Shown: in pieces, positions 1,397-25,868 of the stretch
How the letters are laid out: each line of letters begins with the position of its first letter
How positions within the stretch are numbered: the stretch's first letter is position 1
Origin: an uncultured Rhodospirillales bacterium
GTDB taxonomy: Bacteria; Pseudomonadota; Alphaproteobacteria; CACIAM-22H2
Direction of reading: 5' to 3'
Assembly: GCA_903860935.1 (NCBI GenBank)
Contig: CAIOSQ010000274.1
Coordinates: forward strand, 1 to 49,087
DNA length: 49,087 bases
Notes under the pieces: model-generated
The model's input: only the letters and a program-made list of their open reading frames with translations
The model's database searches: none
What the model was told of the DNA's origin: nothing
Position numbers and translations under genes: made by a program

Positions 1397-2707
1397 TCAG
1401 CGCGGGATGGTCTGCTCGAAATCGCGCAGCGCGGCGCGGTAGGTGCCCGGCCGGAACGCCTCGTCCTTCGCGACGGCCGCGAACATGCGCTGCAGCGCGT
1501 CGTTCATCCGCTTGTAGCCGTCCTCGGGAACATGGCCACCCGCGCGCATCGCGCTGAGGATCGAGCCGATCGCCATCGTGGCCTGCTCGGCGACCGCATA
1601 ATCGAAGAAATCGCCGCCATTGCCGCTCGCCGCGATCCCCGCGAGGAGCGCGCGCATGTCCTCGGCCCCGAAATCGCGCTTGCCGAAGACGCCGACCAGC
1701 TGGCGCGACAGGGTCCGGATCTCGCCGGCGAGGCGCCGGGTTTCCTCGCGGTTTTGGGTCACCGCGCGATGCAGGCCGCGCATCTTCTCGCCCAGGCTGC
1801 GTGCGAGTTCGGGCGCGGCGCGCGCGGCGGCGATCCGTAGCATGATCGCGTTGGCGTCGTTGAGCTTGATCATCCCCGGACCGAGGCCGGTCGACGGCCG
1901 CGGGTTCCATTTGAGGTCGCTCATCGGGTGGTGGCAGGCGTGGCAGTCGAAGAAGACGAGTTCAGGGAACAGGCCGCTCGTCCCGACTTCGGGATCGAGC
2001 ATCAGGTCCATCGTCTTCGCGAGGGCCATCGCCTGGCCGATCGCCCAGACCTGGACGCTGTTCTGTCTGCCCTTGCGCTCGACATAGTCCTTGTCGATGG
2101 CGAAATGCGCCGGCTGCGTGGCGGTGAAGGTGTCCAACTCGAAGCCGATGCGGGGATGTCCCGCGCCCATCAGCCGGTGCGAGACGAATTTGCGGTCGTT
2201 GCCGTAATGGCAGGAGAGGCAGAGTTCGGCGCGCGCGACCGGATCGTCGGTCGGATACATGCCGGCCTTGACGTTGTCGGCATGGCTGGCGCCGGAGATG
2301 TGGATGCCGAGCCAGGTGCTGCCGCCGCCATGACAGGCCTCGCAGCCGACGCCGTCGGTGAGCTGGAACTGGCGACCGCGCTGGGCCGCGGCGACATTGT
2401 CGGCGTGGCAGTCGAGGCACACCTTCGCGGTATGCGCATCGGGTAGTCCCAGATTGCGGGCGATGCGTTTCGACAGATCGTTGAGCAGGACCTTGTAGGC
2501 CTTCGCGTGCGGGTCCTGGCGCAGCCAGGTCGTGTATTCGTTCTGCAGCACGTTCGAGGTCTTGAACGGCTCCTGCGCGCCGTGGCAGGTGCTGCCGGCG
2601 CAGGAGGTCACGCCAAGATGCGTCGCCTTCGCATAATGCGGAAGTTCGACGGCGTTCGCGAGAGCCGGCAGGAGTACCGCCAGAACCAGGACCATCCAGC
2701 CGCGCAT
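1397..2707 (-). CDS. Multiheme cytochrome c (cytochrome c554-like), four CXXCH plus one CX4CH motif
   Basis: Signal peptide MRGWMVLVLAVLLPALANA; motifs CAGSTCH (CX4CH), CLDCH, CEACH, CLSCH, CHACH; C-terminal helical domain paralogous to the 1-468 product. Confidence 0.85.
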   Translation of the reverse strand: MRGWMVLVLAVLLPALANAVELPHYAKATHLGVTSCAGSTCHGAQEPFKTSNVLQNEYTTWLRQDPHAKAYKVLLNDLSKRIARNLGLPDAHTAKVCLDCHADNVAAAQRGRQFQLTDGVGCEACHGGGSTWLGIHISGASHADNVKAGMYPTDDPVARAELCLSCHYGNDRKFVSHRLMGAGHPRIGFELDTFTATQPAHFAIDKDYVERKGRQNSVQVWAIGQAMALAKTMDLMLDPEVGTSGLFPELVFFDCHACHHPMSDLKWNPRPSTGLGPGMIKLNDANAIMLRIAAARAAPELARSLGEKMRGLHRAVTQNREETRRLAGEIRTLSRQLVGVFGKRDFGAEDMRALLAGIAASGNGGDFFDYAVAEQATMAIGSILSAMRAGGHVPEDGYKRMNDALQRMFAAVAKDEAFRPGTYRAALRDFEQTIPR

Positions 2708-9244: not shown

Positions 9245-9309
9245 TGCGTGCGGCGCGGCACCTCTGATAGGATCGCATCCGTGAGGCGTCAGGCGGTGCG
9301 GCTTCGGCC

Positions 9310-10431
9310 ATGATCGACATGCAGCAAGCGCGACCTTCGGGGACGGAGCGCGGCCGGGCCGCCCCGGCCCCCTTGCGCGCGATCCGGTGGTGGCTCGGCG
9401 AACTCGATGGCGCGTGGCGCGATGCGCGCGCACTCCTGGTCCGCGCGCCGCATGGCGCCGACGGGCTTGTGCTCGAGGCCAGCGCCGAGAGCTTCACGAT
9501 CCATCGCCAGTCGGGCGCGCGGCGATCCACGCTGGGACGCGTGGCGCGTCCGGTCGCCAGCCGCGCGGCGCTTGATCCCGGCCTGCGCGCCACGCTTGCC
9601 GCCGCGCGCGGTCGCGCGATCGTCGAACTCGCGGCCGCGGACACGCTGACGCGGCGCCTGCGTCTGCCGGATGCAGGACCGGCCGATCTCGCGCGCATGC
9701 TGCGTTTCGAATTGGCGAAGCACCTGCCTTTCCCGATCGAGGAGGCGTGCTGGTATTTCCGTGCCGTCGGCCCCGCGCCGGGCCGCGGCGCCGCGCGCGA
9801 GGTCGAGGTGAGCGTGGCGCCGCTCGCCCTCGCGGTGGCGATACGCGACGAACTGGCCGCGCTCGGCATCGCCGCCGACGGTTTCGTCGCCGCCGACCTG
9901 CCCGCCGATGCCCGGTCCGGCCTGTCCTTCCTGCCGCCGACGGCGGGAGCGGCGTCCGGTGGTGGATCGGTGGCGCGGATGGTGGCACTGGTCCTCGTGA
10001 TCGCCGCCGGCGGCGCGAGCCTCGCCTCGCCGCTGCTCGCCGATCGCGCGCGGATGCAGACCCTCGGTGACGAGATCGCGCGGCTCGAACCGGCGGCGAA
10101 GCGTGGCCTTGCCGTGCGCGAGCAGGCGCTGCGCGACGGCGAACGCGGCGAGGCCCTGCGCCGGATGCGCCAGGCGCGCCCTGATGCGATCGCGACGCTG
10201 GCGCTGCTCACCGCGGCGATCGACGATGCGTCCTGGCTCGTCTCCCTTGCCCTGTCGGGGCCGGAGGTCGTGATCGACGGCCGGTCGCCATCCGCGGCTG
10301 CCGTCGCGGCGGCGCTGGAGCGCACCGGGCGTTTCGAGCGCGTCTCGTTCCGCGCGCCGATCGCGCGCGATCCGGCCACGGGGCTCGAGCGTTTCCAGAT
10401 CGCAGCCATCCTGGCCGAGGCGCGGCCGTGA
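9310..10431 (+). CDS. gspL: Type II secretion protein GspL / PilM-PilN-like
   Basis: Position between gspK and gspM; MLRFELAKHLPFPIEEACW PilM/GspL-like motif, central TM segment, C-terminal PilN-like domain. Confidence 0.8.
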   Translation: MIDMQQARPSGTERGRAAPAPLRAIRWWLGELDGAWRDARALLVRAPHGADGLVLEASAESFTIHRQSGARRSTLGRVARPVASRAALDPGLRATLAAARGRAIVELAAADTLTRRLRLPDAGPADLARMLRFELAKHLPFPIEEACWYFRAVGPAPGRGAAREVEVSVAPLALAVAIRDELAALGIAADGFVAADLPADARSGLSFLPPTAGAASGGGSVARMVALVLVIAAGGASLASPLLADRARMQTLGDEIARLEPAAKRGLAVREQALRDGERGEALRRMRQARPDAIATLALLTAAIDDASWLVSLALSGPEVVIDGRSPSAAAVAAALERTGRFERVSFRAPIARDPATGLERFQIAAILAEARP

Positions 10432-10967
10432 TCCGCGCGGGGAGCATGGTCGCGCGCGTCGCTGCGCTTGGGCTGCTCGCGGGCTTCGCGGCGGCGCTCT
10501 GGGCCGGTCCGGTCGCGATCTATCGCGAGGCGCTTGACGCGTCGCACACCCGCGTCGCCCAGGCATCGGCGCTGGCGGCGCGCTATCGTCTCCTGGCCGC
10601 GGGGCCGCCCGATGGCGCGGTGCCGCGCGCGGCGTCCGGCCTTCTGCTTGCCGACCTGCCGGCCGCGCAGTCCTTCGCGGCGCTCAGCGAGACCATCAAG
10701 CAGGCCGCGGATGCGGCCGGTCTTGCGGTGCAGGGGCTGCAAGGCCTGGGCGAGGAGAGCGTCCTCGGCCTGCAGCGCAGCGGGGTGCGCGTGCGCGGCA
10801 CGGCCACGCTCGCCGGGCTGGCGCGGTTCCTGGCGACGGTGGAGGGCGGCATGCCGCTCCTGATCGTCGACGGGTTGCGCGTCCAGTCGCGCCAGGGGAC
10901 CGGCGCCACACAGGAGGAGCGACTGGAGATCCAGATGGACATCGTCGGCTTCCGGGAGCCGACATGA
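10428..10967 (+). CDS. gspM: Type II secretion protein GspM (GspM_II-like)
   Basis: Short N-terminal TM then periplasmic ferredoxin-like domain (FLATVEGGMPLLIVDGLRV); ATGA overlap with gspL. Confidence 0.75.
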   Translation: MIRAGSMVARVAALGLLAGFAAALWAGPVAIYREALDASHTRVAQASALAARYRLLAAGPPDGAVPRAASGLLLADLPAAQSFAALSETIKQAADAAGLAVQGLQGLGEESVLGLQRSGVRVRGTATLAGLARFLATVEGGMPLLIVDGLRVQSRQGTGATQEERLEIQMDIVGFREPT

Positions 10968-11401
10968 ACGGCGCGGCATCCACCGGCGCTCTTTTCGTCA
11001 TCGCGGCCCTGCTCGTCGGGGCGGCGGCGTGGCCATGGCTGGCGACCGAAACTCCGGTCGCGATCGCCGCGGCGCCTGGCGCCGCCGCGCCGGTCGCGCT
11101 GCCCGCCGTCGATCCGCAGGCTCTCGCGACCGTGCTGGAGCGCCCGCTGTTTTCCGCCGGTCGCCGTCCGGCTGCGGCCGAGGGGGGGGCGCCCGCCGCC
11201 GCGCCGCGGTCCGCGCTGCGTGTCGAGGGCGTGGTCGACGCGGGCGGCAGGCGCCGGGCCATTCTCCGGCGCGAAGGGAGCGCCGCCAGCCTGCACCTTG
11301 CCGAGGGCGACACGGTCGATGGATGGGTCGTGCGCGCGATCTCGCCGGACAGGGTCGTGCTCGTCTCGCCGGCCGGAGAACTCGTCCTGCCGGCGCGCTG
11401 A
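10964..11401 (+). CDS. GspC/GspN-like type II secretion protein with HR-like domain
   Basis: N-terminal TM; LERPLFSAGRRP; LRVEGVV...AILRREG...LAEGDTVDGWVVRAISPDRVVLVSPAGELVL resembles the GspC homology region; ATGA overlap with gspM. Confidence 0.7.
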   Translation: MNGAASTGALFVIAALLVGAAAWPWLATETPVAIAAAPGAAAPVALPAVDPQALATVLERPLFSAGRRPAAAEGGAPAAAPRSALRVEGVVDAGGRRRAILRREGSAASLHLAEGDTVDGWVVRAISPDRVVLVSPAGELVLPAR

Positions 11402-11409
11402 CGGCGCTG

Positions 11410-13407
11410 TCACTCCGCCGCGTGGGCGGGCGACGCGCCCGGCGCGTCGTCGCGGCGCGGCCGACGCACGGGCAGCGCGACGCGCCAGCGGCGGTCGGCG
11501 AGGCCGGTCAGTCCGCCGATCGCCATCAGGCCGGCACCGATCCAGATCCAGGGGACCAGCGGCTTCCAATAGGCGCGTACAACCCAGCTTCCGGACGGAT
11601 CCGGATCGCCCAGCGCGACATAGACGTCCGACAGAAGGTTGGTGCGGATCGCGGTGTGGCTGGTGACGCGGCGCTGCACCGTGAACAGGCGCCGCTCCGG
11701 ATGAAGCGTCGCGATCGTCGTTCCGTCGCGCGACAGCGTGATCGTGGCACGGTCCGCGAGGTAGTTCTCGCCGGTGCGCTTGTCGACGGCCTCGAGCTTC
11801 AGCGCGTAGCCACCGATCTCCACCGTGTCGCCCGGGCGCATGGCCTGGATCCGCTCGACCTCCCAGGCCGAGGCGGCGATGCCGAAGGTCGTGATCGCGA
11901 CACCCAGATGCGCGAGCGCCATGCCATGGGCCGCCAGCGGCCGGTGGCGGGCGCGGCGCAGGCTCTCGGCCAGCGGCGCGCGGAAGAGATGGATGCGGTC
12001 CGCCCATTCGACCAGCACGCCGACGGCGAGCCAGCAGGCGAGGCCAAGCCCGCCGATGGCGAGAAGAGGACCACCGCCGGTGGCGTAGAGGGCGACGCCC
12101 ATCAGGACGATCGCTGCCGCGAAGGCGAGCCACAGGCGTTGCAGGGCCCCCAGCGCATCGCCGCGCTTCCAGCCGAGGAACGGACCGACCGCAAGCGCAA
12201 GCAGCAGCGGAACCATCAGCGGCGAGAACGTGGCGTTGAAGAAGGGCGGTCCGACCGAGATCTTGCCGCCGCCCATCACGTCGACGATCAGCGGGTAGAT
12301 GGTGCCGATGAAGACGGTCGCCGTGGCGGTCGAGAGCAGGAGGTTGTTGAGGACAATGGCGCCCTCGCGCGAGACCGGCGCGAAGATCCCGCCGCCGCGC
12401 AGCGACGGCGCGCGCAGAGCGTAGAGCGTGAACGAGCCGCCGATCGCGGCCCCGAGCAGCAGCAGGATGAAGCTTCCGCGCGCGGGATCGACGGCGAAGG
12501 CATGGACCGAGGTGAGGACGCCGGAGCGGACCAGGAACGTACCCACCAGGGACAGGCTGAAGGCGACGAGGGCCAGCAGGACCGTCCAGGTCTTCAGCGC
12601 CTCGCGCTTCTCCACCACGATCACGGAATGCATCAGCGCCGTGCCGACCAACCAGGGCATGAAGCTGGCGTTCTCGACCGGATCCCAGAACCACCAGCCG
12701 CCCCAGCCCAACGTGTAGTAGGCCCACCAACTGCCGGTGGCGATGCCGATGGTCAGCGGGATCCAGGCGGCAAGCGACCAGGCGCGGACCCAGCGCGCCC
12801 AGAGCGCGTCGACACGCCCTTCGAGCAGCGCGGCGACCGCGAAGGCGAAGGTGATCGAGTAGCCGACATAGCCGAGATAGAGGAAGGGCGGATGGAAGGC
12901 GAGGCCCGGATCCTGCAGGATCGGGTTGAGGCCGCGCCCGTCCGCGGGCACGGGGAAGACGCGCAGGAACGGGTTCGACGTGGCGAGGATGAAGATCCCG
13001 AAGCCGGTGGCCACCATGCCCTGGATCGCGAGCACCCGCGCGCGCAACGTCTGCGGCAGTTCCGCGCCGAACACCGCGACGGCCCCGCCGAACAGCGCGA
13101 GGATGAGGATCCAGAGCAGCATCGAGCCCTCATGGTTCCCCCAGACGCCGGTGATCTTGTAGAGCATCGGCTTCGTGCTGTGGCTGTTCTCGGCGACGTT
13201 CGCGAGCGAGAAATCCGAGGTCGCGTAGGCGTGGACGAGGGCGAGGAAGCTGAAGGCGACGAACCCCGCCTGGAGCAGGGCGGAGGGTTGTCCCACCGCC
13301 ATCAGGTTGGGGTCGCCGCGCTGCGCCCCCCAGAGCGGGACCACCGCCTGGACCAAGGCGAGCATGGTCGCGAGGATAAGCGCGAAATGTCCGAGTTCGG
13401 CGAGCAT
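11410..13407 (-). CDS. ccmF: CcmF/NrfE-family cytochrome c heme lyase subunit
   Basis: WGGWWFWDPVENASFMPWL tryptophan-rich heme-handling motif, KITGVWGNHEGSMLLW, many TM helices; last gene of the multiheme operon. Confidence 0.92.
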   Translation of the reverse strand: MLAELGHFALILATMLALVQAVVPLWGAQRGDPNLMAVGQPSALLQAGFVAFSFLALVHAYATSDFSLANVAENSHSTKPMLYKITGVWGNHEGSMLLWILILALFGGAVAVFGAELPQTLRARVLAIQGMVATGFGIFILATSNPFLRVFPVPADGRGLNPILQDPGLAFHPPFLYLGYVGYSITFAFAVAALLEGRVDALWARWVRAWSLAAWIPLTIGIATGSWWAYYTLGWGGWWFWDPVENASFMPWLVGTALMHSVIVVEKREALKTWTVLLALVAFSLSLVGTFLVRSGVLTSVHAFAVDPARGSFILLLLGAAIGGSFTLYALRAPSLRGGGIFAPVSREGAIVLNNLLLSTATATVFIGTIYPLIVDVMGGGKISVGPPFFNATFSPLMVPLLLALAVGPFLGWKRGDALGALQRLWLAFAAAIVLMGVALYATGGGPLLAIGGLGLACWLAVGVLVEWADRIHLFRAPLAESLRRARHRPLAAHGMALAHLGVAITTFGIAASAWEVERIQAMRPGDTVEIGGYALKLEAVDKRTGENYLADRATITLSRDGTTIATLHPERRLFTVQRRVTSHTAIRTNLLSDVYVALGDPDPSGSWVVRAYWKPLVPWIWIGAGLMAIGGLTGLADRRWRVALPVRRPRRDDAPGASPAHAAE

Positions 13408-13418
13408 GCCTTATCGTA

Positions 13419-16400
13419 TCAGCGTCGCGTTGCAGCCGGCACGAAATCACCCGGCCGACCCGTGGGGGAGACCGCGTAGGGCTTGCCGTCGCGGTCGATA
13501 TAAAGGCGGCGCTGTTCCTCCAGGGTGAAGGGGCGGGATCCGATGCGCCCGAACACCGCCACCTGACCGCCGCTCTCGTCGACGCCGCGGTCGCGTTCCA
13601 GCCCCCGCGACAGCGACAGCGCGGGCGTGCGCGTCTTGCGCCAAGCCACCAACTCGGGCTTGGGCTCGGGCGAGAAGCCGTAGAAATTCGGCTGGCTGTC
13701 CGGCGAGGTCAGTTGCACGACCTTGAGCCCGTTGGCGCCATCCGCCACATAGGCGAAGGCCGAGGCGTTGGTCGCGCCGATCACCACGTCGCGCGCGTCG
13801 TTGAGGCGCCCGCCATCGGTGAAGCGCTGGTGGACGCGCGGATGCTCGGGGCGCTCGACGTCGACGATCACGAGGCCCTCGCGGCCAGCCGCCACGTAGG
13901 CATAGGTGCGGGCGACCATCATGCGGTGCGCGTCGGCCATCGGGAGATGCGCCGAGGGCACCGGGCGCGGCGTCGCCGGCGCGGTGACGTCGATCACGTG
14001 CATGCCCTTCGTGTCGAGCGCGAAGAGGTAGCGGAACTGGATGGCGGTCGACCGCAGATCCGCGAAGGGCAGCGTCGCGAGGACCTTCGGCTCCAGCGGC
14101 TTGTCCATGTCGAGGACGACCAGCCCGGCGCGTGCCGCGATATAGAAATACCGGCCGGCGATGGTCAGGTGACGGGCCCCGTCGAGGATGCCGCCCGCGT
14201 TCCAGGTCAAGGCGCGGCGCAGGAAGTTGTTGCGCGGCTCCCCGTCGGCCAGCGTGTTGACGTCGGTCAGGATCAGGCCTTCCACGGAATCCGTGATGAA
14301 GGCGTAGTCGTAGATCGGGTGGAAGGGCTGCTCCTGGTTGAGCTCCTGCATCTTCGGATCGGCGCCGCGCGCCGGATGGATCGGCTGCGTCGTCGGTAGC
14401 ACGACGCAGGTCGCGTCGCGCGAGGCGATATGCGTGTCGTGACCGAGCGCCGCGAAGGGCGCGGAGATGATCCGTTGCGATACGCCCTTGTTGGCGATGC
14501 TGGCGACGTCGTAGACGCGCATGCCGCTCGACCCTTCGGCGACGAAGAGATATTCGCCGCGCAGCTGCAGGCATCCGACCTGCGCCGCGGTGCCGCGCGT
14601 ATCGGTCTCGGCCAGGGCGCGGCCGCGCGCGAGATGCTCGCCGTACCATTTCGGATAGGCATAGCGGTGCAGGTAGCTGCCGATGACCGCCTGCGGCTCG
14701 TCCCATTCGGTGACGCGCACGGCCTCGAAGCTGCGCTCGCCGCCGACCCAGGCGTTGAGCCCGACCATGTTGACGTAGTTGGTCCCGTGCAGGAGCAGCT
14801 GCGCCATGATCGCGTTGTTGTCGTTGGCTTCGGAGATGTGGCAGTCGGCGCAGCCCTTGGTTTCCGTCAGACGCTCGGTATGCGGATAATGCGGCGCGAA
14901 GGCCTGGCTCGAATAGCCGGCCGCGGAGATCGGTGGCTGTTGCGCGTAGATCCGCTCGCGGTTGATGTTGGTCGAGGACAGGACCAGGGCCGAAGTCGAG
15001 CGGATCGGCGCGATGATGTTGCCCTTGATCGTGCCGTGCCGGCCGAGTTGGAACATGTCGTCGCGCGCGACCTGCGGATTGTAGGTGGCGTAGTTGCGCG
15101 TCTCGCCGCCCTCGTAGTGATGGCGCTCGGTCTTGAAATTCGCCTCGATCGGAAGATGGCAGCCGCCGCAGCTCGTCGTCCAGGAGAGGTGGCAGGTGTA
15201 GCAGGCCAGTTCTTCGTCCTTGTGGGCGAGATCCGCCGCCGGGATGCCGGGACCCCATTTCATGGAGCCGTCGTTGCTCATCAGCTTGGCGCGCGCGGAT
15301 TTCGCGTTGTACTTGGCGTTCGCCGGATCGACGCTGTCCTTGACCAGCGACACCTCCCATTCGAGGTCCGGATACAGCGACGACCGCTGGAAGAGCTTGC
15401 CGTCGATCCACTCGAAGCGGGGGCGGCCGAAGCTCGTGCGCATGAGCGACAGGTCGGTGCCGCCGGGCCGCGCCGCGGGACCGGAGGTCCGCAGGCTCGG
15501 ATAGGCTTTCGACGTGCCATGGCAATCGGCGCAGCCGATCTCGATCGCCGCGGCGACCTCGCCATAGATGTGGCCGTTGCCGTGGCTGTCCTGGGCGAAA
15601 TGGCAGTCGACGCAGTGCATGCCGGCATCGACATGGATCGACGACATGTGGACCGCCTTCTTGAACTTCTCGGGGTCCTCCGGCGGGATCACGTTGTCGG
15701 CGGCGTCGAGCAGGTTGCCCTTGCGGTCGCGCTTGTAGATGGCGCGGAAATTCCAGCCATGGCCGTGGTAATCGGCGAACTGCGTGTCCTTCAAGTCGGG
15801 ATTGAGGGCGCTGACCTCGCGCAGGAAGGCCGGATCCGCCCAATTGCCGCGGACTGACGCGCCCTCGGGGTTGCGCCGCAGGGTCTTGGCGATTTCTTCG
15901 TCGGTCGGGAATTTCTGCTCGGCCGGAAACATCTTCGGGGCGTCCGGCTCGTAGTCGTACATGGTGTAGCCGAGCATGCTGTTGAGGAAGATGTTCGGCT
16001 GGTGCATGTGGCAGATCATGCACTGGCTGGTCGGGATCGCTTTCGTGAACTCGTGCTTGAGCGGGTGGCCGGAGCGGTCATGCGGGATCGTCGGGTCGAC
16101 CGTCTTTGACGTGCCGCGATTGCCGAAGCGGGCGTAGGGGCCCGAATGCTTCACGTCGCGGTCGTTGGCGTAGACGACGTGGCACGACGCGCAGCCCGAG
16201 CTGCGATAGTCGCCCGGCTGGTCGTTGGTGCCGAGGAACCACATGAACGGGTCGTTCAGGCGCGTCTTGGTGATGTTGAGTACGGGGATCGCAACACGCA
16301 GACCGGTCGCGGGGCCGCGATTCGATTGCTTGAGATCGGGGCGTCCCGGCTCCTCCAGGCGCTGGATCTGGCCGGTCACGTTGGGCAGGCCGATTTCCGG

Positions 16401-17165
16401 GAACTGGGTCAGGATGTTGCGCCCGCCGCGCTCGAAGACGCGGAACACGTCGGCCGGCGGCGTCACTTCCCAGGCCGGGAGCGGATAGAGTTCTGGCAGC
16501 AATCCGCGGCTGCGGGTCAGTTCGGGGCTGGGCTTAACCGGGGCCACCAGCTTCGCGGGCTGTCCGTCGCGCGTGTAGCCCTCGCCAAGGAGGTAGTTTT
16601 TGAACGGCAGGATTCCGTTGTTGTAGGACGCGCCGCCCCAGAGCATGGCGCCGGTCGCCATCAGGCTGCGCTCGGCGGCCTGGATGACCGTGAGATGGCA
16701 CGCGCCGCAGGCCTCGCGCGCGACGCGGTAGTCGCTGGGGTTCACGAAGCGGATGTAGTCGGGCGATTCCTTGTTCAGCAGCGTGTAGCTGCGGATGGGG
16801 TTGGCGCTGCCCGAGGCGGTCCAGAATTCGGGCAGGCGCGGCTGGACATGCGCCTTCGCCATCGCGGCGCCATAGGCGGGGCCGTCCTTGCTGCTTCCGG
16901 CGGGACGCATGACGCCCGCGTCACCCCCATGACAATCCGCGCAGCCGAGGACGACGGCGGGATTGCTGTGCATGTTCGCGGAATCGGATTTCTCGTGGCA
17001 GGTGAGGCATCCGGCGCTCTTTTCCGCCGCGCGGTCGGGATGCTGCCGATCGGGAGCCGGCGGGAAGAGCGGTGCCGAGGCGACGCGCGGGCCAGGGCCA
17101 TCGGCCGCCCAGCTCGACGGAACCGCGAAGACGATCAGGAGGAGCGCGAGGAGGAGAAGGCGCAT
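13419..17165 (-). CDS. Secreted decaheme cytochrome c fused to C-terminal LVIVD-type beta-propeller repeats
   Basis: Signal peptide MRLLLLALLLIVFAVPSSWA; ten CXXCH motifs (CLTCH, CADCH, CGACH, CASCH, CMICH, CVDCH, CADCH, CYTCH, CGGCH, CADCH); then six repeats such as GREGLVIVDVERPEHPRV and AGLVVLDMDKPLEPKVL. Confidence 0.9.
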   Translation of the reverse strand: MRLLLLALLLIVFAVPSSWAADGPGPRVASAPLFPPAPDRQHPDRAAEKSAGCLTCHEKSDSANMHSNPAVVLGCADCHGGDAGVMRPAGSSKDGPAYGAAMAKAHVQPRLPEFWTASGSANPIRSYTLLNKESPDYIRFVNPSDYRVAREACGACHLTVIQAAERSLMATGAMLWGGASYNNGILPFKNYLLGEGYTRDGQPAKLVAPVKPSPELTRSRGLLPELYPLPAWEVTPPADVFRVFERGGRNILTQFPEIGLPNVTGQIQRLEEPGRPDLKQSNRGPATGLRVAIPVLNITKTRLNDPFMWFLGTNDQPGDYRSSGCASCHVVYANDRDVKHSGPYARFGNRGTSKTVDPTIPHDRSGHPLKHEFTKAIPTSQCMICHMHQPNIFLNSMLGYTMYDYEPDAPKMFPAEQKFPTDEEIAKTLRRNPEGASVRGNWADPAFLREVSALNPDLKDTQFADYHGHGWNFRAIYKRDRKGNLLDAADNVIPPEDPEKFKKAVHMSSIHVDAGMHCVDCHFAQDSHGNGHIYGEVAAAIEIGCADCHGTSKAYPSLRTSGPAARPGGTDLSLMRTSFGRPRFEWIDGKLFQRSSLYPDLEWEVSLVKDSVDPANAKYNAKSARAKLMSNDGSMKWGPGIPAADLAHKDEELACYTCHLSWTTSCGGCHLPIEANFKTERHHYEGGETRNYATYNPQVARDDMFQLGRHGTIKGNIIAPIRSTSALVLSSTNINRERIYAQQPPISAAGYSSQAFAPHYPHTERLTETKGCADCHISEANDNNAIMAQLLLHGTNYVNMVGLNAWVGGERSFEAVRVTEWDEPQAVIGSYLHRYAYPKWYGEHLARGRALAETDTRGTAAQVGCLQLRGEYLFVAEGSSGMRVYDVASIANKGVSQRIISAPFAALGHDTHIASRDATCVVLPTTQPIHPARGADPKMQELNQEQPFHPIYDYAFITDSVEGLILTDVNTLADGEPRNNFLRRALTWNAGGILDGARHLTIAGRYFYIAARAGLVVLDMDKPLEPKVLATLPFADLRSTAIQFRYLFALDTKGMHVIDVTAPATPRPVPSAHLPMADAHRMMVARTYAYVAAGREGLVIVDVERPEHPRVHQRFTDGGRLNDARDVVIGATNASAFAYVADGANGLKVVQLTSPDSQPNFYGFSPEPKPELVAWRKTRTPALSLSRGLERDRGVDESGGQVAVFGRIGSRPFTLEEQRRLYIDRDGKPYAVSPTGRPGDFVPAATRR

Positions 17166-17167
17166 CG

Positions 17168-19009
17168 TCAGAAGGTCAGCACGAGGTTGCCGAGGACGGA
17201 ATAGAGGAGCTTTCCGTCGGACTGGGTGCCGTTCCCGGACGTGTCATAAAGCGCCTCCAGCCCCTTGCCCGGCACCAGGATGGCGCCGGACAGCCGCGCC
17301 ACCACGTTCTGCGTGAAATAGGGACGGTAGATCAGCGCCGCCGAGACTTCCCAGCCGATGGCGGTGTCGATCTTGCCCTGGTTGCGCAGATATTCCAGCG
17401 ACGACGTGTCGACGAAGCTCAGCCGGTTGAGGTTGGTCGACAGCCGCAGTTCCGGCAGCAGGTCCATGTCCGTCCCGACGCCGAGCAGATTGAGCCCGGG
17501 ATTGACGAAATTCGACTGGCCTTCGTCCTTCGACGACCGCAGCGCGGGCAGCAATCCGTTGCGCGGCGAGAGCGTGACGCCGCCGCCGCCGATCAGCGGC
17601 ATGGCCTGCCGGATCCAGTAGCTTGTGTCCGCGCCGGCGAAGACCGGGTTCTCGAAGATCGCATCGAAGCCTGTGGCCACGCGGTCGCGCGGGTTGCGAT
17701 CGCCGCTGGCATGCAGCCCGGACAGGCGCACGCGCAGCCAGTCGAAATCCATCGACGCCTCGGCTGCGCCGAAATAGGCGCGGATGTCCTGGGGCTTGTT
17801 GTTGCCGGCGAACTGGTTCCGCTCGTCGCGGCCCAGCGCGTAGTAGATCGAGGAGGTCAGGTTGATCCGGCCGAAATGCCCGTCGCCGTTGAAGCCGAAA
17901 TAATTGACGATGTAATCGCGCCCGCGCTGGTCGCCGATGGTCGCCGGCCGCACCAGGAAGCCGTTCTGGTCGTAGTGCTGGGTGTCGCCCTCGTTGTTGC
18001 GGTTGAGGACGTAGGTGATCTGCGATGTGTGACCGAGCACGGGCAGATCCTGGCCGTAGAGGTTCAAGATCGCGATGTCGTCGTTGCGCAGCGGCGCCGA
18101 GATGTCGTTGAGGCCGCTGTTGGTCTCTTTCTCGATGCGACGGAAATAGGCGGCATTGTACTGGAACCGGTTGTTGTAGCGGTTGCCGAAGAGCCGCACG
18201 CCGAGCTGGTTGTCCTGGAACAGGAAGCCGCGGAAATCGGTCGAGAAGGGCTGGATCCCGACCCGCAGCGAGTCGAAATCGTAGCGGTCGGAGACGTTGC
18301 GCAGGTGGTAGTCGACGAAGGCTTCCTGAAGCCCGGTGAACCCGTCGGTACGCTGGGTTCCACGCCCGGGATCCGCGAACAGGGCGCCGACCTCTTCCGC
18401 CTTGACCCGGTTGTAGTTGACGACCGGCGTCAGCCGGATCTCGAAATCGGGCGGCTTGAAGGCCGTGTTGCCCTTGATGAGCGCCACGCTGGCGATGACG
18501 CTCTGGCTGAACACGGTCTGGGTGTAGCGGCCGAAGGTGTTGTTGGCGCCGGGCGTGGCGGTGCCCTGGTTGCCGACGGGGATGGGGACGCGGCGCGGCT
18601 CGAAGATCGTATCCGAGATCGCCGTGAGACTGACGAACCAGTCCTCTCCGAAGACCGGCTTGTCGCCCTTGATCGTGTTCGTGTTGTAGGGGTCGTAGAG
18701 TTTCTCCGGACCGAGCAGCGTGTCGAGCAGGCGCCAGCGGTCGGGGATGGGAAGGAATTCGCGCGGCAGCACCGGCGCGGGCGGCGGGACGGCGTTGGGA
18801 TCCGTGACCGGCTCGACCCGATCCTGTGCCGCGGGTCTGGGGGCGGGCGCCTGAGCCGGACGACGGCGCGGATCCTCGCTCGCCTGGGCGAGTTCGCTGC
18901 CTTGCACCGGCGGCGCGGGCGGCGGCGGTGGCGGCGGCCAGGACCGAGCCAGCGCCGGAAGGCTCAGGCCGACAAGGAGCGCCGCGGCGGTGGCCGGGAT
19001 CGGTTTCAT
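17168..19009 (-). CDS. Outer-membrane beta-barrel protein (porin-like)
   Basis: Signal peptide MKPIPATAAALLVGLSLPALA, proline-rich linker, alternating amphipathic strands, C-terminal aromatic ...LGNLVLTF. ATGA overlap with the upstream gene supports the 19009 start. Confidence 0.8.
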   Translation of the reverse strand: MKPIPATAAALLVGLSLPALARSWPPPPPPPAPPVQGSELAQASEDPRRRPAQAPAPRPAAQDRVEPVTDPNAVPPPAPVLPREFLPIPDRWRLLDTLLGPEKLYDPYNTNTIKGDKPVFGEDWFVSLTAISDTIFEPRRVPIPVGNQGTATPGANNTFGRYTQTVFSQSVIASVALIKGNTAFKPPDFEIRLTPVVNYNRVKAEEVGALFADPGRGTQRTDGFTGLQEAFVDYHLRNVSDRYDFDSLRVGIQPFSTDFRGFLFQDNQLGVRLFGNRYNNRFQYNAAYFRRIEKETNSGLNDISAPLRNDDIAILNLYGQDLPVLGHTSQITYVLNRNNEGDTQHYDQNGFLVRPATIGDQRGRDYIVNYFGFNGDGHFGRINLTSSIYYALGRDERNQFAGNNKPQDIRAYFGAAEASMDFDWLRVRLSGLHASGDRNPRDRVATGFDAIFENPVFAGADTSYWIRQAMPLIGGGGVTLSPRNGLLPALRSSKDEGQSNFVNPGLNLLGVGTDMDLLPELRLSTNLNRLSFVDTSSLEYLRNQGKIDTAIGWEVSAALIYRPYFTQNVVARLSGAILVPGKGLEALYDTSGNGTQSDGKLLYSVLGNLVLTF

Positions 19010-20877
19010 GGCAGGCATGGGCTCTGTTCCAGGGAATCCAGGAAGGGAGCGAAGGGGCAATTCACATAGCGCAGCCGCGTGCCCTGGGGCTCCAGCGTGT
19101 CGGCGCGCAGCGGCGCCTGGTTGAGCGTGCCGCCGGCATTCTGGATCGCCAGATAGGCGATCATGTCGTCCTGGTCGATGCCGTCGCCGGAGACGCCGAC
19201 CGCGCCGACCAGCGTCGCGCCGCGATAGACCGGCACGCCGCCGGCGAAGATCTGCAGCCCGTTGGCGAGGCGCGTGCGGCCATCCGAGGCGACCGCGAGC
19301 CCAGCCGCACCGGGTCCGGCGCAGCCGGAGGCGGGCGGAGCGTTGCCTCCGAGCAGGGCCACGATGTTGCCTGCGACGAGATCGAGTTGGAACCCCGTCG
19401 CGAAGGGGCTCCAGGTCGCGAAGGGACGGCTGAGCGGACCGCTGGGACCGGCATTGATGCCGTCCGGATAGAAGGGGCGCGCGATGTTGCCGATCGCACG
19501 CGTCGTGAAGGCGATCCCGTCGGCGAGGGCGCCCGCGCCGAGGAAGGCGCGCGTGTCGGTCACGGTGGTCGCGAAGCCGCCGCCGAGCGCGGTGAGCTCG
19601 GCGCCGGTCTGCGGGCGCGACAGGAAGGCCGCGGAGCGCGCCTTCTGCACCGCGACATCCGTGCCGAAGACCGGCGCGTCGGGCGTGCGGGCGAGGGCAA
19701 GGACGTTGCCGTCGGCGTCGACGACGCTGACCGTCACCTGCGCGAAGCTGTCGGTCGGCTTGCGGATCTGGGCGCGCGCCCGGAACGCCGTCTCCAGGCC
19801 GCGCTGGACGAGCAGCCTGGCCTCGTTGGCGGTAAGCCCCGCGCCGCCGGCCGGGGCGAGCCCGGCGCGCGGCGCGAAACGGTTCGCCCCCGTCCCATCG
19901 TCCAGGACGAAGGCATTCAGGCCCGGATAGGTCGTGCCATTGTCCGGCCGGATCCCGGACGCGATCGTCCCGTATTCCTGGCCGGCGCGGACCGTGCCGT
20001 CGAAATAGCCGGTGACCGCAACGGCCGCGAAGGCGCCGGGTGCGGCGACAGCGGCGGCGAGCGCATCGCTGTCGACATAGCGCAGGGACCGCCCGACCAC
20101 CGTGATGTTGTCGGCGCGGATGGAGCCGGCGGGCCGGAAACCGGACGTTCCGGCGATCGCGATCAGCTCGTCGGTGTCGGTATCGAAGTCGAAGATGTTG
20201 CGGTCGAGCGTGTAGACCCCGTCGGCGACGATGCCGATCCCGCCCACCGGGGTGCCGTTCTTGTACAGCGGCAATCCGCCGGGATCGGCGGCGAGACCGA
20301 GCGGCGAGCGCATCGGCCCCGCGCCCGGCGTCGCGCGCACGACGTCGGAACAGGGCAACTGGCTGAACTGCACGCCGAAGAGCGGCCCGCCCATCTGGTT
20401 GAGTTCGCCGGGCAGGAAGTTTTCCTGCACGATCTGGCTGGCCGTGCGCGTCGAGAAGGCATTGCCGCCGGAGGACAGATAGGCACCCGTGATCGCCTTC
20501 GCGATCGCGGCGAGTTCGCCCGGAACGTCCGCGTCCTCGAGGCCAGCCCCGGTGATGCCGCGCTGCGATGTCACCCGCGCCGTCGCCGGCGCGCCCGCCA
20601 TGCGTGTGACGGCGAGGACGTTGCCGACCCGGTCGACGACCGCGATCGTGGCGGGTCGGTTGCGCGCAGTCGCTTCGTTCATCGCCTGCAGCACGATCGT
20701 GTTGACGTTGGCGACGGTAAGGAAGGGTGCCGGATCGTTGCTGCTGGCCGGCACGGAATCGGGCGATCCGCCGCCGCCGCCGCCGCAGGATGGCGCGCCA
20801 AGGAACAGCGCCGCCAGGAGGCAGAGCGCCGGCGGCAGCATGCGCCTGCTGGCGCGCGATCCGGTTGGCGTGGACAA
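19006..20877 (-). CDS. Putative lipoprotein with tandem GlcG/HbpS-like (DUF336) domains
   Basis: Hydrophobic signal followed by CGGGGGGS; two units with GlcG signature (PATIAVVDRVGNVLAVTRMAGAP and AQVTVSVVDADGNVLALARTPDAPVFGTDVAVQKARSAAFLS). TTG start 20877; alternative ATG 20841. Lipobox is non-ideal. Confidence 0.72.
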   Translation of the reverse strand: MSTPTGSRASRRMLPPALCLLAALFLGAPSCGGGGGGSPDSVPASSNDPAPFLTVANVNTIVLQAMNEATARNRPATIAVVDRVGNVLAVTRMAGAPATARVTSQRGITGAGLEDADVPGELAAIAKAITGAYLSSGGNAFSTRTASQIVQENFLPGELNQMGGPLFGVQFSQLPCSDVVRATPGAGPMRSPLGLAADPGGLPLYKNGTPVGGIGIVADGVYTLDRNIFDFDTDTDELIAIAGTSGFRPAGSIRADNITVVGRSLRYVDSDALAAAVAAPGAFAAVAVTGYFDGTVRAGQEYGTIASGIRPDNGTTYPGLNAFVLDDGTGANRFAPRAGLAPAGGAGLTANEARLLVQRGLETAFRARAQIRKPTDSFAQVTVSVVDADGNVLALARTPDAPVFGTDVAVQKARSAAFLSRPQTGAELTALGGGFATTVTDTRAFLGAGALADGIAFTTRAIGNIARPFYPDGINAGPSGPLSRPFATWSPFATGFQLDLVAGNIVALLGGNAPPASGCAGPGAAGLAVASDGRTRLANGLQIFAGGVPVYRGATLVGAVGVSGDGIDQDDMIAYLAIQNAGGTLNQAPLRADTLEPQGTRLRYVNCPFAPFLDSLEQSPCLP

Positions 20878-20880
20878 GGT

Positions 20881-22557
20881 CTAGCGCTCCTGTCGGATCT
20901 TGGTCATCGGTGCCGTCCCGTGGATGTGGAACCCGTGGCAGGATGTGCAGTCGCTGGGGACTTTGAGGGTCGCGTTGGCGGCGCCATGGCAGGCGACGCA
21001 GGTGCCGAGATCGGGTATCAGCACGTCGCTGCTGCTGGTCGACTGCTCGGCCTTGTGGCACTCGCCGCAGCCCATTGTAAAGTGCTGACCGTGGTCGAAG
21101 CGCGTCTTGGGAAGATGGCTGTCGAGCACGATGACGGGTTCGATCGAGACCGTCGCACCTTTGCGCGTGGCGATATGACACGAGGCGCAGCCGCGCCGCG
21201 GATCGAAGACGAGGTCGACGGCGGCGTCGACGCGCTGCTGGACCCAGGCACGCAGTTCCAGGCGCTCCGCCTCGGTCACGGGCTGACCGACCCGCAGGCG
21301 CGGCAGGCCCGCGGCGATCTCGGCGTCGCCGCCCTCGAGCGCGATGCGCGCATAGGCGTCGCGCAGATAGGCGTGCACGGCCTCGGGGTCGCCATGCGGA
21401 ACCGTGCGCTCGGGCGCCTTCGGGTCGAATTTCAGCGTGTGGCACCAGCCGCAATCGGTTTCGAAGCGCGTCGGCATGAAGCCCTGGCGACCGGCATCCG
21501 GGGCATGGCAGCTGGCGCAGTCGAGCTTGACCAGCCCTTTGGGCGACAGCACGCCACCCGTCTTGAGATGCGCGTCATGCGGGAATTTGAGCGTCGCGAG
21601 GTTCTTCGGCGGGGTCGGGCCGCTCAGGTCGACGCGTTCGAGGACCGGCCCCGTCGTGTCCTTCACGACGGTGACGCGGAAGGGCGGGTGGCCATCCGGG
21701 AAGCCGGTGACCGCGCGCAGATGGCTTCCCGCCATGCGTCCGTCGCCACCCGTATGGCAGTCTGTGCACAGACGGTCGTCGCGCAGGATCGACGCCTGGG
21801 CGCCGCGATGCTCGGTGTGGCAGTCGCCGCAGCCGGCATTGTCCAGCCCCGCCTTGCGCACCGCGTCGCCGATCGCATGGCCGGGCAGTCCGGTATGGCA
21901 TGCCGCGCAGGCCGAATCCGGCACCGAGGCGAAGGCCCGCTGGTGGCAGGCGCCGCAATCGGCGGCGAAGTGCTTATGGGCGTCGGAGATCTCGCCGACG
22001 GTCCAGCTGAGATCGGCGACGCGGGTCCAGCCTGGCTTCGGCACCGCATGGTCCGCACGTTGCGGGCCCCAGCCGAGGAAGCTTCCGACTGGAATGGCGA
22101 GGCCGAAAACGACCAGGAGCAGGAACAGCATCCAGGACGGCAGGCGTTTGCCCAGCCGGGTCCGCTCCAGCCCGATGCGGCTGGTCTTGCGCAGCCGGGC
22201 GAGATCGTCGCCCGGCGGATCGACCAACTCGATCGCGATCGCGGCGTCGTATCCCGCGCCTGGCGTATCGAGCGTCAGCTTGTAGGGGCCGATCCGGATC
22301 TCGTCGCCGGACACGACGAGGGCATTGGTCGTGGACTTGCCGTTGACGCGCACGTCGCCCGGCGCGGTCGCGCGCAGCCGCATGCCGCCGGCGTCCGGCG
22401 ACAGCTCGGCGGCGATCAGCGCGACGCGCAGGTCGGGCAGGCCGACCTCGTTGCCGGGGCCGCGCCCGAGATGCAGGACCGGCGCATCGGCTTCCGCCGT
22501 CCGCCGCGCGGGAGCGCCGCGTTCGCGCCGGGTGATGTAGCCGAGTTCAGCGCGCAT
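20881..22557 (-). CDS. Membrane-anchored decaheme cytochrome c with N-terminal degenerate FHA-like domain
   Basis: N-terminal LHLGRGPGNEVGLPDLRVAL...VNGKSTTNALVVSGDEIRIGPYKLTL (FHA-like); TM WMLFLLLVVFGLAIPVGSFLGW; then ten CXXCH motifs (CGACH, CAACH, CGDCH, CTDCH, CASCH, CGWCH, CASCH, CGECH, CVACH, CTSCH). Confidence 0.85.
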   Translation of the reverse strand: MRAELGYITRRERGAPARRTAEADAPVLHLGRGPGNEVGLPDLRVALIAAELSPDAGGMRLRATAPGDVRVNGKSTTNALVVSGDEIRIGPYKLTLDTPGAGYDAAIAIELVDPPGDDLARLRKTSRIGLERTRLGKRLPSWMLFLLLVVFGLAIPVGSFLGWGPQRADHAVPKPGWTRVADLSWTVGEISDAHKHFAADCGACHQRAFASVPDSACAACHTGLPGHAIGDAVRKAGLDNAGCGDCHTEHRGAQASILRDDRLCTDCHTGGDGRMAGSHLRAVTGFPDGHPPFRVTVVKDTTGPVLERVDLSGPTPPKNLATLKFPHDAHLKTGGVLSPKGLVKLDCASCHAPDAGRQGFMPTRFETDCGWCHTLKFDPKAPERTVPHGDPEAVHAYLRDAYARIALEGGDAEIAAGLPRLRVGQPVTEAERLELRAWVQQRVDAAVDLVFDPRRGCASCHIATRKGATVSIEPVIVLDSHLPKTRFDHGQHFTMGCGECHKAEQSTSSSDVLIPDLGTCVACHGAANATLKVPSDCTSCHGFHIHGTAPMTKIRQER

Positions 22558-22581
22558 CGGTTCCCGCCCCCCGCCGCACCG

Positions 22582-23466
22582 TCAGAAGTAGAAGAAGACG
22601 GCGACGACATGCGCCGTCAGGGCCGCCAGCAGGGCGAAGGACAGCGGCACGTGCAGATAGAGCCAGATGTCCATAAGCGCCTTGTAGCGGAGGTCGCGGC
22701 TGATCACGTCGAGATACTCCAGCCGCTCGCCGAGCAGGCCAAGGACGCGCTGCGCCTGTGCGCGCTGCTCGGGCACCGCGTCGGCGGCCGTGATGCGCCG
22801 CAGGGCGAGGCGCGTCGCGCAGTTCGGGCGCGTGCCGGAGAGCTGGCGCCATGCCGAGCCGCCGATCGCTACCTGGTTCATCGCCGCGAGGACGAGGCCC
22901 GCCTGCCGGTCGTCGAGACCAAGGGCGGCCTGACGCATGTCACCGTCGAGCGCGGCGATCTTCGCCATCAGATCGGACACCGTCGCGCCATGGCGGTTGC
23001 GGGTCATCTGCTCCGGCACCGCGGCATAGACGATCATGCCGAAGGCGCCGCTCGCGATCACCGCCATCATCAGCGCATAGGCGAGGGTGTGGATGTTGAG
23101 GCCGAACTCGAAGCCGGTATGCAGCGTCGCCACGACGATCAGCGCGAGGCCGAGATAGACATGCGCCGACAGCCAGCCCTGCAGGCGTCCGATGCGGCCG
23201 TAGGAGCGCTTGCGCATCCCGAACCACATCAACCAGAGGATCAGCGCGGCGCCGATCGTCCCCAGCGTGTACCCGAGCCAGGTGCCGCCGTTGGGCGCGG
23301 TGAGCGGGCGATGCAGTGCGTAGGCCAGGATGGTCGCGAGGCACAGCCAGATGCCCCATTTCAGGAAGCGGAACCCGCGATAGGCCAGGAAGGACTGGTG
23401 GATCTCGCCCGGGGGGATCCGCTTGCCGGCCGCGGCGGCGCCCGGCTTGGCCGTCGCGGCGCTCAC
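22582..23466 (-). CDS. Membrane cytochrome b-like protein (probable di-heme b)
   Basis: Five to six TM helices; HVYLGLALIVVATLH and HVPLSFALLAALTAH, each HX13H. GTG start overlaps the stop of the upstream gene. Confidence 0.72.
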   Translation of the reverse strand: MSAATAKPGAAAAGKRIPPGEIHQSFLAYRGFRFLKWGIWLCLATILAYALHRPLTAPNGGTWLGYTLGTIGAALILWLMWFGMRKRSYGRIGRLQGWLSAHVYLGLALIVVATLHTGFEFGLNIHTLAYALMMAVIASGAFGMIVYAAVPEQMTRNRHGATVSDLMAKIAALDGDMRQAALGLDDRQAGLVLAAMNQVAIGGSAWRQLSGTRPNCATRLALRRITAADAVPEQRAQAQRVLGLLGERLEYLDVISRDLRYKALMDIWLYLHVPLSFALLAALTAHVVAVFFYF

Positions 23467-25868
23467 GAGGCACCTCCGCGACGGATCATGGCGACGTATT
23501 CCTCTGGCCGCACGCGGATCGCCGCGCCGGTCGGACATGCACGCACGCAGGCCGCGCCACCTTCGATGCCATGGCACATGTCGCACTTCACCGCTTTCTT
23601 GCGGCTGGACTCGCCGCCATGGTGCTTCTTCGCCGCCTTGTTCTCTCCGGGGCCCGGGCCGCGGCCGAAGAACAGCCAGCTCAGCAGGCCGGGCTTTTCT
23701 TCCGCCGGAGCGGCCATCTTGATCACGCCATAGGGGCAGTTGCGCTCGCAATTGCCGCAGCCGATGCAGGTGTCGGCGATCGTCACCTCGCCGCTGGGCG
23801 CGCGCTTGATCGCGTCGGGCGGGCATTCCTTCATGCAACTCGGATGCTCGCAGTGGCGGCATGAGGTCGGCACGTGGATCGAGGCGAAGGTGGCCCCGGC
23901 CTCGCGATCCAGCCGCGAGATCCGGTCATGCGTCTCGGCGCAGGCCTTCTCGCAATTGTCGCAGCGGATGCACAGCGTCTCGTCGATCAGCAGCACGTCG
24001 GTGGCTTCGCCGAGGCCCTCGCGCATGAGGAAGTTGACGAGGGCACCGCTTTCGCTGTCGGCGGTCTGATGCGCGCTGCTGCGCACGCGCTCGCTGAATT
24101 TTTCCTCCACCCGGCGCCGCAATTCGGGGGCCGCGTCCAGCAGGTCTCGCACCGCGGCCGCAGGCAGCTTGATCACCTGGGTGGCCACGGCGGCCTTGAC
24201 CGATGCCGTGCGCGGCGCGTTGCGCAGCAGGGCCATCTCGCCGACATAGTTGCCCGCCGCGAGATAGGTGAGGACGACTTCCTGACCGCCGACCATGCGG
24301 GAGACCAGCACCGATCCCGAGCGGATCAGGTACATCGCGTCGTCGGTGGCACCTTCCTGGATCAGGATCTCGCCGGCCTTGAGCGAGACGATCTCCGCCT
24401 CGCGGATCACCGGCGCCAGGATGGCGCTGTCGAGATCCTGGCCGAGATAGCTCTTCACCACGCGCACGATCGCGACCTCGTCGATCGCGCGCGCCACGCT
24501 CGGCACCGAGCGCTGCAGTCGCAGCATGGTGTTGCGCGGCACCTCGAGCAGCAGCGCGCCATCGCGCGCGATCACCGTCGCGCCGCGACGGCGGCCCGAG
24601 AGGAGGCCGATCTCGCCGAAGAATTCGCCGCCGCGCAGCACCGGGTTTGCTGGCGCGCCGGCCTCGCCGATCAGAACCTCCACGCTGCCGTCGACGATGG
24701 CGTAGAAGCTGTTGGTGTAGTCGTTGCGCTCGAAGATCTTCTGTCCTGGCGCGGCCAGATGGACCTCCGATGTCAGGAGGAATTCGCGGATCTGCAGCGG
24801 CGAGAGTTCCGCGAAGACCGGCACCTGCTCGCGGATCGTCGCGATGAACGGGCTGACCGCGAGGCCGGGTTGCGCGGCGTCGAGCTTGGCCTGGATCAGC
24901 GGTTCGTCGGCCGGCGCCACCGGGTTGCCGAGGATGTACTCGACGACCTCGTAGCCCTGGTTCATGCATTGCTTGATCAGCGGATAGCCGGCCAGCGCGC
25001 CGATGATGTAGAGGCCGGGCACATTGGATTCGTAATGGTCGCTGACGACCGGGAAGGCCGACGGGCTGTCGCTTCCGAACACGATGCCGCAGGATTCGAC
25101 GAATTTGCGCGGCGGCAAGGCGCCGAGCCGCGCGATGACGCGGTCGCACCGGATTCGTGTCTCGCCATCCGCCGTGTCGACGGTCATCCAGCCTGGTTCG
25201 AGGCGCTTGGGCGCGGTGCGGACCATCGCCTGCATACGGCCGTCGGCGATCGCCGTCTGGAGGAGCTGGACGTTGGCCGGTTTGGCGTTGGGATACTCTG
25301 CACCGCGGTTGAGGATCGTCACCGTGTTGGCGTTGGACAGGACGAGGGCGTTCTCGATGCCGGCGTCGCCGGTGCCGACGACCACGATATGCTCGTCCTG
25401 GAATTCGTCGGGATCGTCCAACTGGTACTGGACGGACGGCAACTCGGCCCCGGGCACCGTGAGCTTGCGCAGATTGCCCTGGAGACCGATCGCGAGCACG
25501 ACCGCGCGCGCGCGCACGACGCTGCGATCGGCGAGGGTGAGGCGGAAATCGCCGCGTTCGCCCTTGATGCCGACGACCTCCGCGTTGAGCCGCACGTTGC
25601 ATCCTGCCGCCTCGACGCCGCGATCCCAGGTCTCCAGCACGGTCTCGCGCGAACCCTCGGCGAAGCCGACATCGGCGCGCAGCGGCAGGATGTCCGGCGT
25701 CGCCATGACGTGCTTGCGCCGCTGGTACTTGTAGATCGTGTCCGACAGGTGCCCGGTGCGCTCGAGCAAAACGTGGCTGACGCCGCGCGCGGCGGCCCTG
25801 GTGACCGCGGCGATCCCGCCCGGCCCCGAGCCGACAATGGCAATTTCGAAGATGTCGTCGCCGCTCAT
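23463..25868 (-). CDS. FAD/NAD(P)-dependent oxidoreductase fused to two cNMP-binding domains and a four-cluster [4Fe-4S] ferredoxin (DmsB/NrfC-like) domain
   Basis: GSGPGG and GTGDAG dinucleotide motifs; FFGEIGLLSGRRRGATV and VGEMALLRNAPRTASV cNMP cassettes; CX2CX2CX3C, CX2CX4CX3CP, CX2CX2CX3CP and CX2CX8CX3CP cysteine sets. GGAGG Shine-Dalgarno just upstream of ATG 25868. Confidence 0.92.
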   Translation of the reverse strand: MSGDDIFEIAIVGSGPGGIAAVTRAAARGVSHVLLERTGHLSDTIYKYQRRKHVMATPDILPLRADVGFAEGSRETVLETWDRGVEAAGCNVRLNAEVVGIKGERGDFRLTLADRSVVRARAVVLAIGLQGNLRKLTVPGAELPSVQYQLDDPDEFQDEHIVVVGTGDAGIENALVLSNANTVTILNRGAEYPNAKPANVQLLQTAIADGRMQAMVRTAPKRLEPGWMTVDTADGETRIRCDRVIARLGALPPRKFVESCGIVFGSDSPSAFPVVSDHYESNVPGLYIIGALAGYPLIKQCMNQGYEVVEYILGNPVAPADEPLIQAKLDAAQPGLAVSPFIATIREQVPVFAELSPLQIREFLLTSEVHLAAPGQKIFERNDYTNSFYAIVDGSVEVLIGEAGAPANPVLRGGEFFGEIGLLSGRRRGATVIARDGALLLEVPRNTMLRLQRSVPSVARAIDEVAIVRVVKSYLGQDLDSAILAPVIREAEIVSLKAGEILIQEGATDDAMYLIRSGSVLVSRMVGGQEVVLTYLAAGNYVGEMALLRNAPRTASVKAAVATQVIKLPAAAVRDLLDAAPELRRRVEEKFSERVRSSAHQTADSESGALVNFLMREGLGEATDVLLIDETLCIRCDNCEKACAETHDRISRLDREAGATFASIHVPTSCRHCEHPSCMKECPPDAIKRAPSGEVTIADTCIGCGNCERNCPYGVIKMAAPAEEKPGLLSWLFFGRGPGPGENKAAKKHHGGESSRKKAVKCDMCHGIEGGAACVRACPTGAAIRVRPEEYVAMIRRGGAS

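Follow-up and report, generated by a model that had tools for sequence, protein, structure and literature searches.

A widespread multiheme gene set of Pseudomonadota that may form an NAD(P)H-fed redox system spanning the cell envelope

The contig CAIOSQ010000274.1 of an uncultured Rhodospirillales bacterium, analyzed here over positions 1 to 49,087 (the window, whose numbering is used for all gene coordinates), carries seven closely packed minus-strand genes, A to G, between positions 25868 and 11410, and a separate cytochrome gene, H. Genome comparisons revealed that A to F and H belong to a gene set conserved in Alpha-, Beta-, and Gammaproteobacteria. This system is widespread and apparently undescribed so far, and its probable role is to move electrons from the cytoplasm across the two membranes. 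On our favored reading, which we hold at roughly even odds, A to F and H constitute one trans-envelope redox system, with the decaheme protein F as its terminal oxidoreductase and E as a porin that serves F. In its outer part, the system looks less like the wires known from mineral-breathing bacteria than like a cytochrome that processes a substrate and is paired with a porin.

Known envelope-spanning multiheme systems begin at the quinol pool and have been studied chiefly in metal-respiring specialists, whereas the system described here appears to begin at NAD(P)H and is conserved over three classes. Its carriers include many genera known as aerobic heterotrophs, some of them culturable and some with plasmid-borne copies, in which such a pathway is not usually considered. 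The set A to F plus H is concrete and testable, and Sphingobium herbicidovorans offers a ready target for deletion.

Gene content and conservation

The genes discussed in the following are listed with their positions, strand, and assigned products.

Gene A, 23463..25868, minus strand: YpdA/TrxR-like FAD/NAD(P)H domain, two cyclic nucleotide (cNMP)-binding domains, and a ferredoxin-like domain (Pfam/NCBIfam)
Gene B, 22582..23466, minus strand: four-helix membrane protein, di-heme cytochrome b-like; GTG start
Gene C, 20881..22557, minus strand: apparently degenerate FHA domain, one transmembrane helix, and a periplasmic decaheme domain
Gene D, 19006..20841, minus strand: exported tandem HbpS/GlcG-like protein; ATG start, alternative TTG at 20877
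Gene E, 17168..19018, minus strand: outer-membrane 18-strand beta-barrel, AlgE/OprD-like porin
Gene F, 13419..17165, minus strand: signal peptide, ExtM-clan decaheme cytochrome domain, and LVIVD beta-propeller
Gene G, 11410..13407, minus strand: CcmF/NrfE-type heme lyase
Gene H, 1397..2707, minus strand: exported pentaheme cytochrome c554-like protein, apart from the main cluster

An original prediction, made from this DNA alone, had described seven same-strand genes, and all were recovered in the same order and places. Its product assignments were borne out by Pfam matches for the flavin/cNMP/Fe-S protein A (Pyr_redox, two cNMP domains, and Fer4), the FHA, transmembrane, and decaheme protein C (cytochrome c7/c3, with the FHA domain recognized by profile search), the tandem GlcG/HbpS-like putative lipoprotein D (HbpS-like in three stretches), and the decaheme-LVIVD cytochrome F (LVIVD). 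The lipoprotein-like N-terminus of D (SCGGGGGG; the N-termini of its homologues were also inspected), the paired histidines of the di-heme cytochrome b-like protein B, and the long strands of the modeled outer-membrane barrel E agree with it as well, and the 20 c-hemes that it counted correspond to 10 CxxCH motifs each in C and F. Across the window, the heme motif TGYN6TGYCAY occurs 25 times, far above the chance expectation of 1.74 ± 1.29. The claim that all genes are joined by overlaps or by gaps under 25 bp is accurate for the A/B (4 bp) and D/E (13 bp) overlaps and for the gaps at B/C (24 bp), E/F (2 bp), and F/G (11 bp), but possibly not at C/D, where the gap is 39 bp with the ATG start of D and 3 bp with the TTG.

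When F was used to search GTDB genomes, about 580 related stretches emerged, and the best 80 were analyzed as loci. These span the three proteobacterial classes, and most of those with sufficient flanks keep the order A-B-C-D-E-F; variants place H after F or ahead of D, or have ABC inverted or relocated. In an even sample of 397 Pseudomonadota genomes, 13 carry full-length F, 17 carry A, 18 carry C, and 14 carry E. All 13 genomes with F also contain A, C, and E, compared with 4 (A) and 5 (C) of the 384 genomes that lack F (Fisher tests of F against A and C, p ~1e-20, ignoring kinship). Nine of the 14 carriers fall within one family, which means fewer independent events than the carrier count, but the carriers span several families and the three classes. 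Because four genomes (G238, G350, G397, and G440) have A at a distance from F or on a separate contig, the co-occurrence reflects more than linkage. The distribution of E equals the 13 genomes with F plus one (G200), whose contig carries A-B-C-D-E and then ends; the E/F gap has a median of 11 bp over 76 junctions. Heme numbers are near-invariant, with 10 in C, 10 in F, and 5 in H. Gene order, co-occurrence, and these heme counts mark A to F as a conserved functional unit, as had been proposed. The proposed co-occurrence of all seven genes applies to A to F, in order and over three classes, but not to the CcmF gene G.

H, which the original prediction overlooked, is a member of the conserved system. 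A homologue is present in 51 of the 80 loci, mostly straight after F or ahead of D, and its motif set of four CxxCH and one CX4CH is the same in all 46 homologues compared. The protein matches the cytochrome c554 family (PF13435; 40.8 bits, cut-off 20.8) and the c554 structure in the PDB (1bvb; E = 3e-6).

G is a CcmF by Pfam and by its match to the CcmF/NrfE profile TIGR00353 (658.6 bits, cut-off 569) and is co-directional with the operon, as claimed, but its membership is not conserved: no intact CcmF adjoins the cluster in the 80 loci, and the single partial match lies 9.5 kb from F (L053). We therefore rejected it as a core member. The genome holds four Cytochrom_C_asm matches, G among them, and its main ccm genes are located on another contig (C252). 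Genes ccmA/B/C adjoin the cluster in five to six of the 80 loci (L036, which has no ccmB match, L037, L041, L053, which also has ccmE, L071, and L077), so there is a loose link between the system and cytochrome maturation.

Between G and H, a type II secretion system (T2SS) cluster (GspF/H/K/L/M/C-like) occupies about 3944-11401 on the plus strand, convergent to A to G. T2SS genes are also found near the system in L014, L015, L038, and L048, and more weakly in L034, a proximity hinting at secretion of F or H by this route; with five loci at most, the T2SS was rejected as a core member. Genes for a PP2C phosphatase, an extra FHA-domain protein, FecR, and TPR proteins recur beside the cluster (L042, L043, L053, and L107) and suggest phospho-signalling or surface regulation.

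Carriers include Silanimonas, Tahibacter, Limnobacter, Sphingobium, and Sphingopyxis, genera known as aerobic heterotrophs, so that obligate lithotrophy is disfavored. In Sphingobium and Sphingopyxis (L094 and L095), the system is found on large plasmids or secondary replicons as an H-D-E-F operon, with ABC inverted nearby in L094 but absent from the stretch examined in L095. On these plasmids, its genes are annotated only with domain names or as 'hypothetical protein'.

Predicted entry and output modules

By its domain content, A bears out the claim that the operon itself supplies an NAD(P)H-side entry. The ferredoxin-like domain of A contains 16 cysteines, each fully conserved in 53 sequences, which are predicted to bind four 4Fe-4S clusters. 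The protein has two GxGxxG motifs, at 13 and 165, and the arginine at position 188 of its NAD(P)H site is kept in 96% of sequences. An arginine at this site is where NADPH-linked enzymes bind the phosphate, and A may thus prefer NADPH. In B, His102/116 in the second transmembrane helix and His272/286 in the fourth are 100% conserved in 57 homologues; since the residues of each pair are 14 apart, the spacing usual for two b-hemes, they form a di-heme b ligand set. B has no Pfam match and no meaningful relative in a sequence search of the PDB. C carries 10 CxxCH motifs in 54 of 55 homologues, together with ten further invariant distal histidines, one per heme, and has PDB profile matches to c7-type proteins and, for the FHA fold, to GarA and others. 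Its phosphothreonine site appears degenerate: in aligned homologues the Gly-Arg is kept, the Ser position is replaced, and the His is variable.

The AlphaFold2 model of E (predicted local distance difference test, pLDDT, 77) has 18 long strands. Its best match among solved structures is AlgE (E = 8e-18), with OprD-type porins likewise among the best. Three of 36 homologues match the Pfam Alginate_exp family; E itself has no Pfam match and no meaningful relative in the PDB sequence search. Barrels of the MtrB/PioB family (PF11854) are wider, with about 26 strands, and a profile search found none in this genome.

F contains 10 CxxCH motifs in all 79 homologues, with its best matches in alphaproteobacterial metagenome-assembled genomes (MAGs), and has no meaningful relative in the PDB sequence search. 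Its mean column identity across the three classes is 63%, a degree of conservation expected of an enzyme rather than of a loosely constrained surface wire. The heme half aligns with a 12-heme family over ~530 columns (hhalign, E = 5.5e-39), and these relatives in turn match the NCBIfam ExtM model with E-values down to 2e-70, yet under its cut-off. Through these intermediates, F is a distant homologous member of the ExtM clan. The C-terminal part is modeled as a beta-propeller. Conserved cytochromes of 762-854 aa with 10-12 hemes that are close to ExtM also occur in other proteobacteria (L101-L105), in one case beside a TorC/NapC-like pentaheme protein and a cytochrome b (L104), and in another beside CcmF/CcmH and a CRP-type regulator (L102).

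One genome (G451, L096) lacks F and instead combines ABC with two H-like pentaheme proteins, a different barrel-like protein of 542 aa, and a five-heme cytochrome of 593 aa. Because ABC is paired here with different output proteins, it can be regarded as an exchangeable delivery module.

Proposed electron path and competing explanations

In the proposed path, NAD(P)H would reduce the FAD of A, from which electrons would travel by way of four 4Fe-4S clusters to B. The two b-hemes there would take them across the inner membrane to C with its ten c-hemes, and F would receive them last, probably via H. F would act as the ExtM-clan terminal oxidoreductase, located beyond the outer membrane or on its periplasmic side, and would use its propeller for binding. 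E may be a porin that passes substrate or product, or an anchor of F, and D a putative exported accessory lipoprotein. In this scheme, ABC would be an exchangeable part that delivers electrons, and D-E-F(-H) would form the output module. Outward flow appears likelier because the membrane potential favors electron movement from cytosol to periplasm. A broader proposal, to which we give slightly less than an even chance, is that of a hitherto undescribed multiheme reductase system that spans the envelope, is fed by NAD(P)H, and is modular: A would supply electrons to 25 c-hemes in the periplasm and outer membrane, and ABC would plug into different outer-membrane output modules. Several percent of Pseudomonadota species would carry it, ordinary aerobic heterotrophs among them.

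Several observations weigh against F as a porin-served oxidoreductase. The direct score of F with the NCBIfam ExtM model is 64.5 bits, against a cut-off of 800. The cytochrome half is poorly modeled (pLDDT mostly <70) and gives no view of a five-coordinate active-site heme, and 13 conserved non-motif histidines for 10 hemes are enough for all of them to be bis-His. No substrate or enzymatic residue was picked out in the system. F and H are localized by inference, and nothing in the sequence fixes the direction of flow, on which the original prediction was rightly cautious.

That prediction had read the operon as a complete electron conduit from cytoplasm to outer membrane and had named MtrCAB among the known conduits. 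Four elements of this picture were retained (the NAD(P)H entry, the di-heme step in the inner membrane, the decaheme arm in the periplasm, and the barrel), but the barrel is not of MtrB type and F is not of MtrA/MtrC type, and with the loss of barrel type and cytochrome family, its two main supports, the MtrCAB-like reading is weakened. A true outer-membrane conduit, with F in or against E and hemes exposed outside to reduce minerals, humics, or electrodes, would account for the adjacency of the E and F genes and their perfect co-occurrence, for a propeller suited to a surface domain, and for the nearby T2SS genes in the window and four further loci. We nevertheless consider it unlikely, though the strongest competitor, given that an 18-strand barrel is narrower than the MtrB sheaths, that F is strongly conserved and outside the MtrA/MtrC family, and that the system is frequent in aerobic heterotrophs.

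The same components could run in the opposite direction, taking up electrons from Fe(II), a cathode, a reduced small molecule, or partner cells and passing them to NAD(P)+ or the quinone pool. Reversibility is common among multiheme systems, and the Haliea MAG that contains locus L042 bears the name Biocath_Gamma, which suggests a biocathode as its source. Reduction of NAD(P)+ by the usual external donors would, however, be uphill and against the membrane potential, the carrier genera are largely heterotrophic, and the sole RuBisCO-family match in this genome is weak and partial, which makes uptake rather improbable. Least credible, and in our estimate very improbable, is the idea that unrelated cytochrome genes came together by chance, or that the cluster is a local transferred island whose genes share no function: the patchy spread over ~3.5% of the sampled Pseudomonadota and the plasmid location in Sphingobium and Sphingopyxis would fit it, but gene order is kept in three classes, heme counts barely vary, and the co-occurrence of unlinked ABC and DEF already contradicts it.

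Comparison with known systems

No published account of this gene set was found in the open literature (open PMC subset), and the closest descriptions cover parts of it. As in MtrCAB, MtoAB, PioAB, and the Geobacter porin-cytochrome complexes, multiheme c-type cytochromes adjoin an outer-membrane barrel, and E and F are encoded together like the barrel and multiheme pairs of the MtrAB/PioAB type. The system differs from all of these in its AlgE-type barrel, in an NAD(P)H-type rather than quinol entry, and in its cytochromes C and F, which lie outside the MtrA and MtrC families: with the DmsE/MtrA model TIGR03508 (cut-off 192 bits), C and H score only 14 and 20 bits, and F has no match. The Uet system of Candidatus Tenderia electrophaga is likewise a multi-gene multiheme cluster that includes a barrel and repeats of the beta-propeller type (PMC5371394, PMC10734462), but its undecaheme, tetraheme, and triheme cytochromes, NHL proteins, and peptidyl-prolyl isomerase are absent from the window cluster.

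A Gallionellaceae pangenome lists, for 27 of 87 genomes, a 'Forkhead-associated protein' with 10 hemes (cluster 403) and gives neither its function nor its gene context (PMC10734462). Compared by description only, its FHA domain and 10 hemes match the architecture of C, of which it is perhaps a homologue. H shares a fold region with Nitrosomonas cytochrome c554 but differs in its five heme motifs, including the CX4CH, and in a long helical C-terminal half; no hydroxylamine oxidoreductase (HAO) was seen among the annotated neighbors.

The Geobacter ext cluster (extHIJKLMNOPQS) includes the cytochrome ExtM and the porin-like ExtI, the latter needed for normal reduction of selenite and tellurite, but not of Fe(III) citrate (PMC5877670). 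The entry here, a flavin/cNMP/Fe-S protein with a di-heme b protein, and the combination of 10 hemes and a beta-propeller in F are distinct from Ext. None of ExtH (rhodanese), ExtKL (selenoprotein), and ExtO (Rieske) was found among the Pfam/NCBIfam matches of the cluster, E has no match to a named ExtI model, and the ExtN and ExtO models gave sub-threshold matches to heme segments of the cluster proteins. Both systems nevertheless combine multiheme cytochromes with a porin-like barrel, a pentaheme protein, and a membrane b-type component (PMC5877670), and F, a distant relative of the 12-heme ExtM, shares with it an unusually high degree of conservation.

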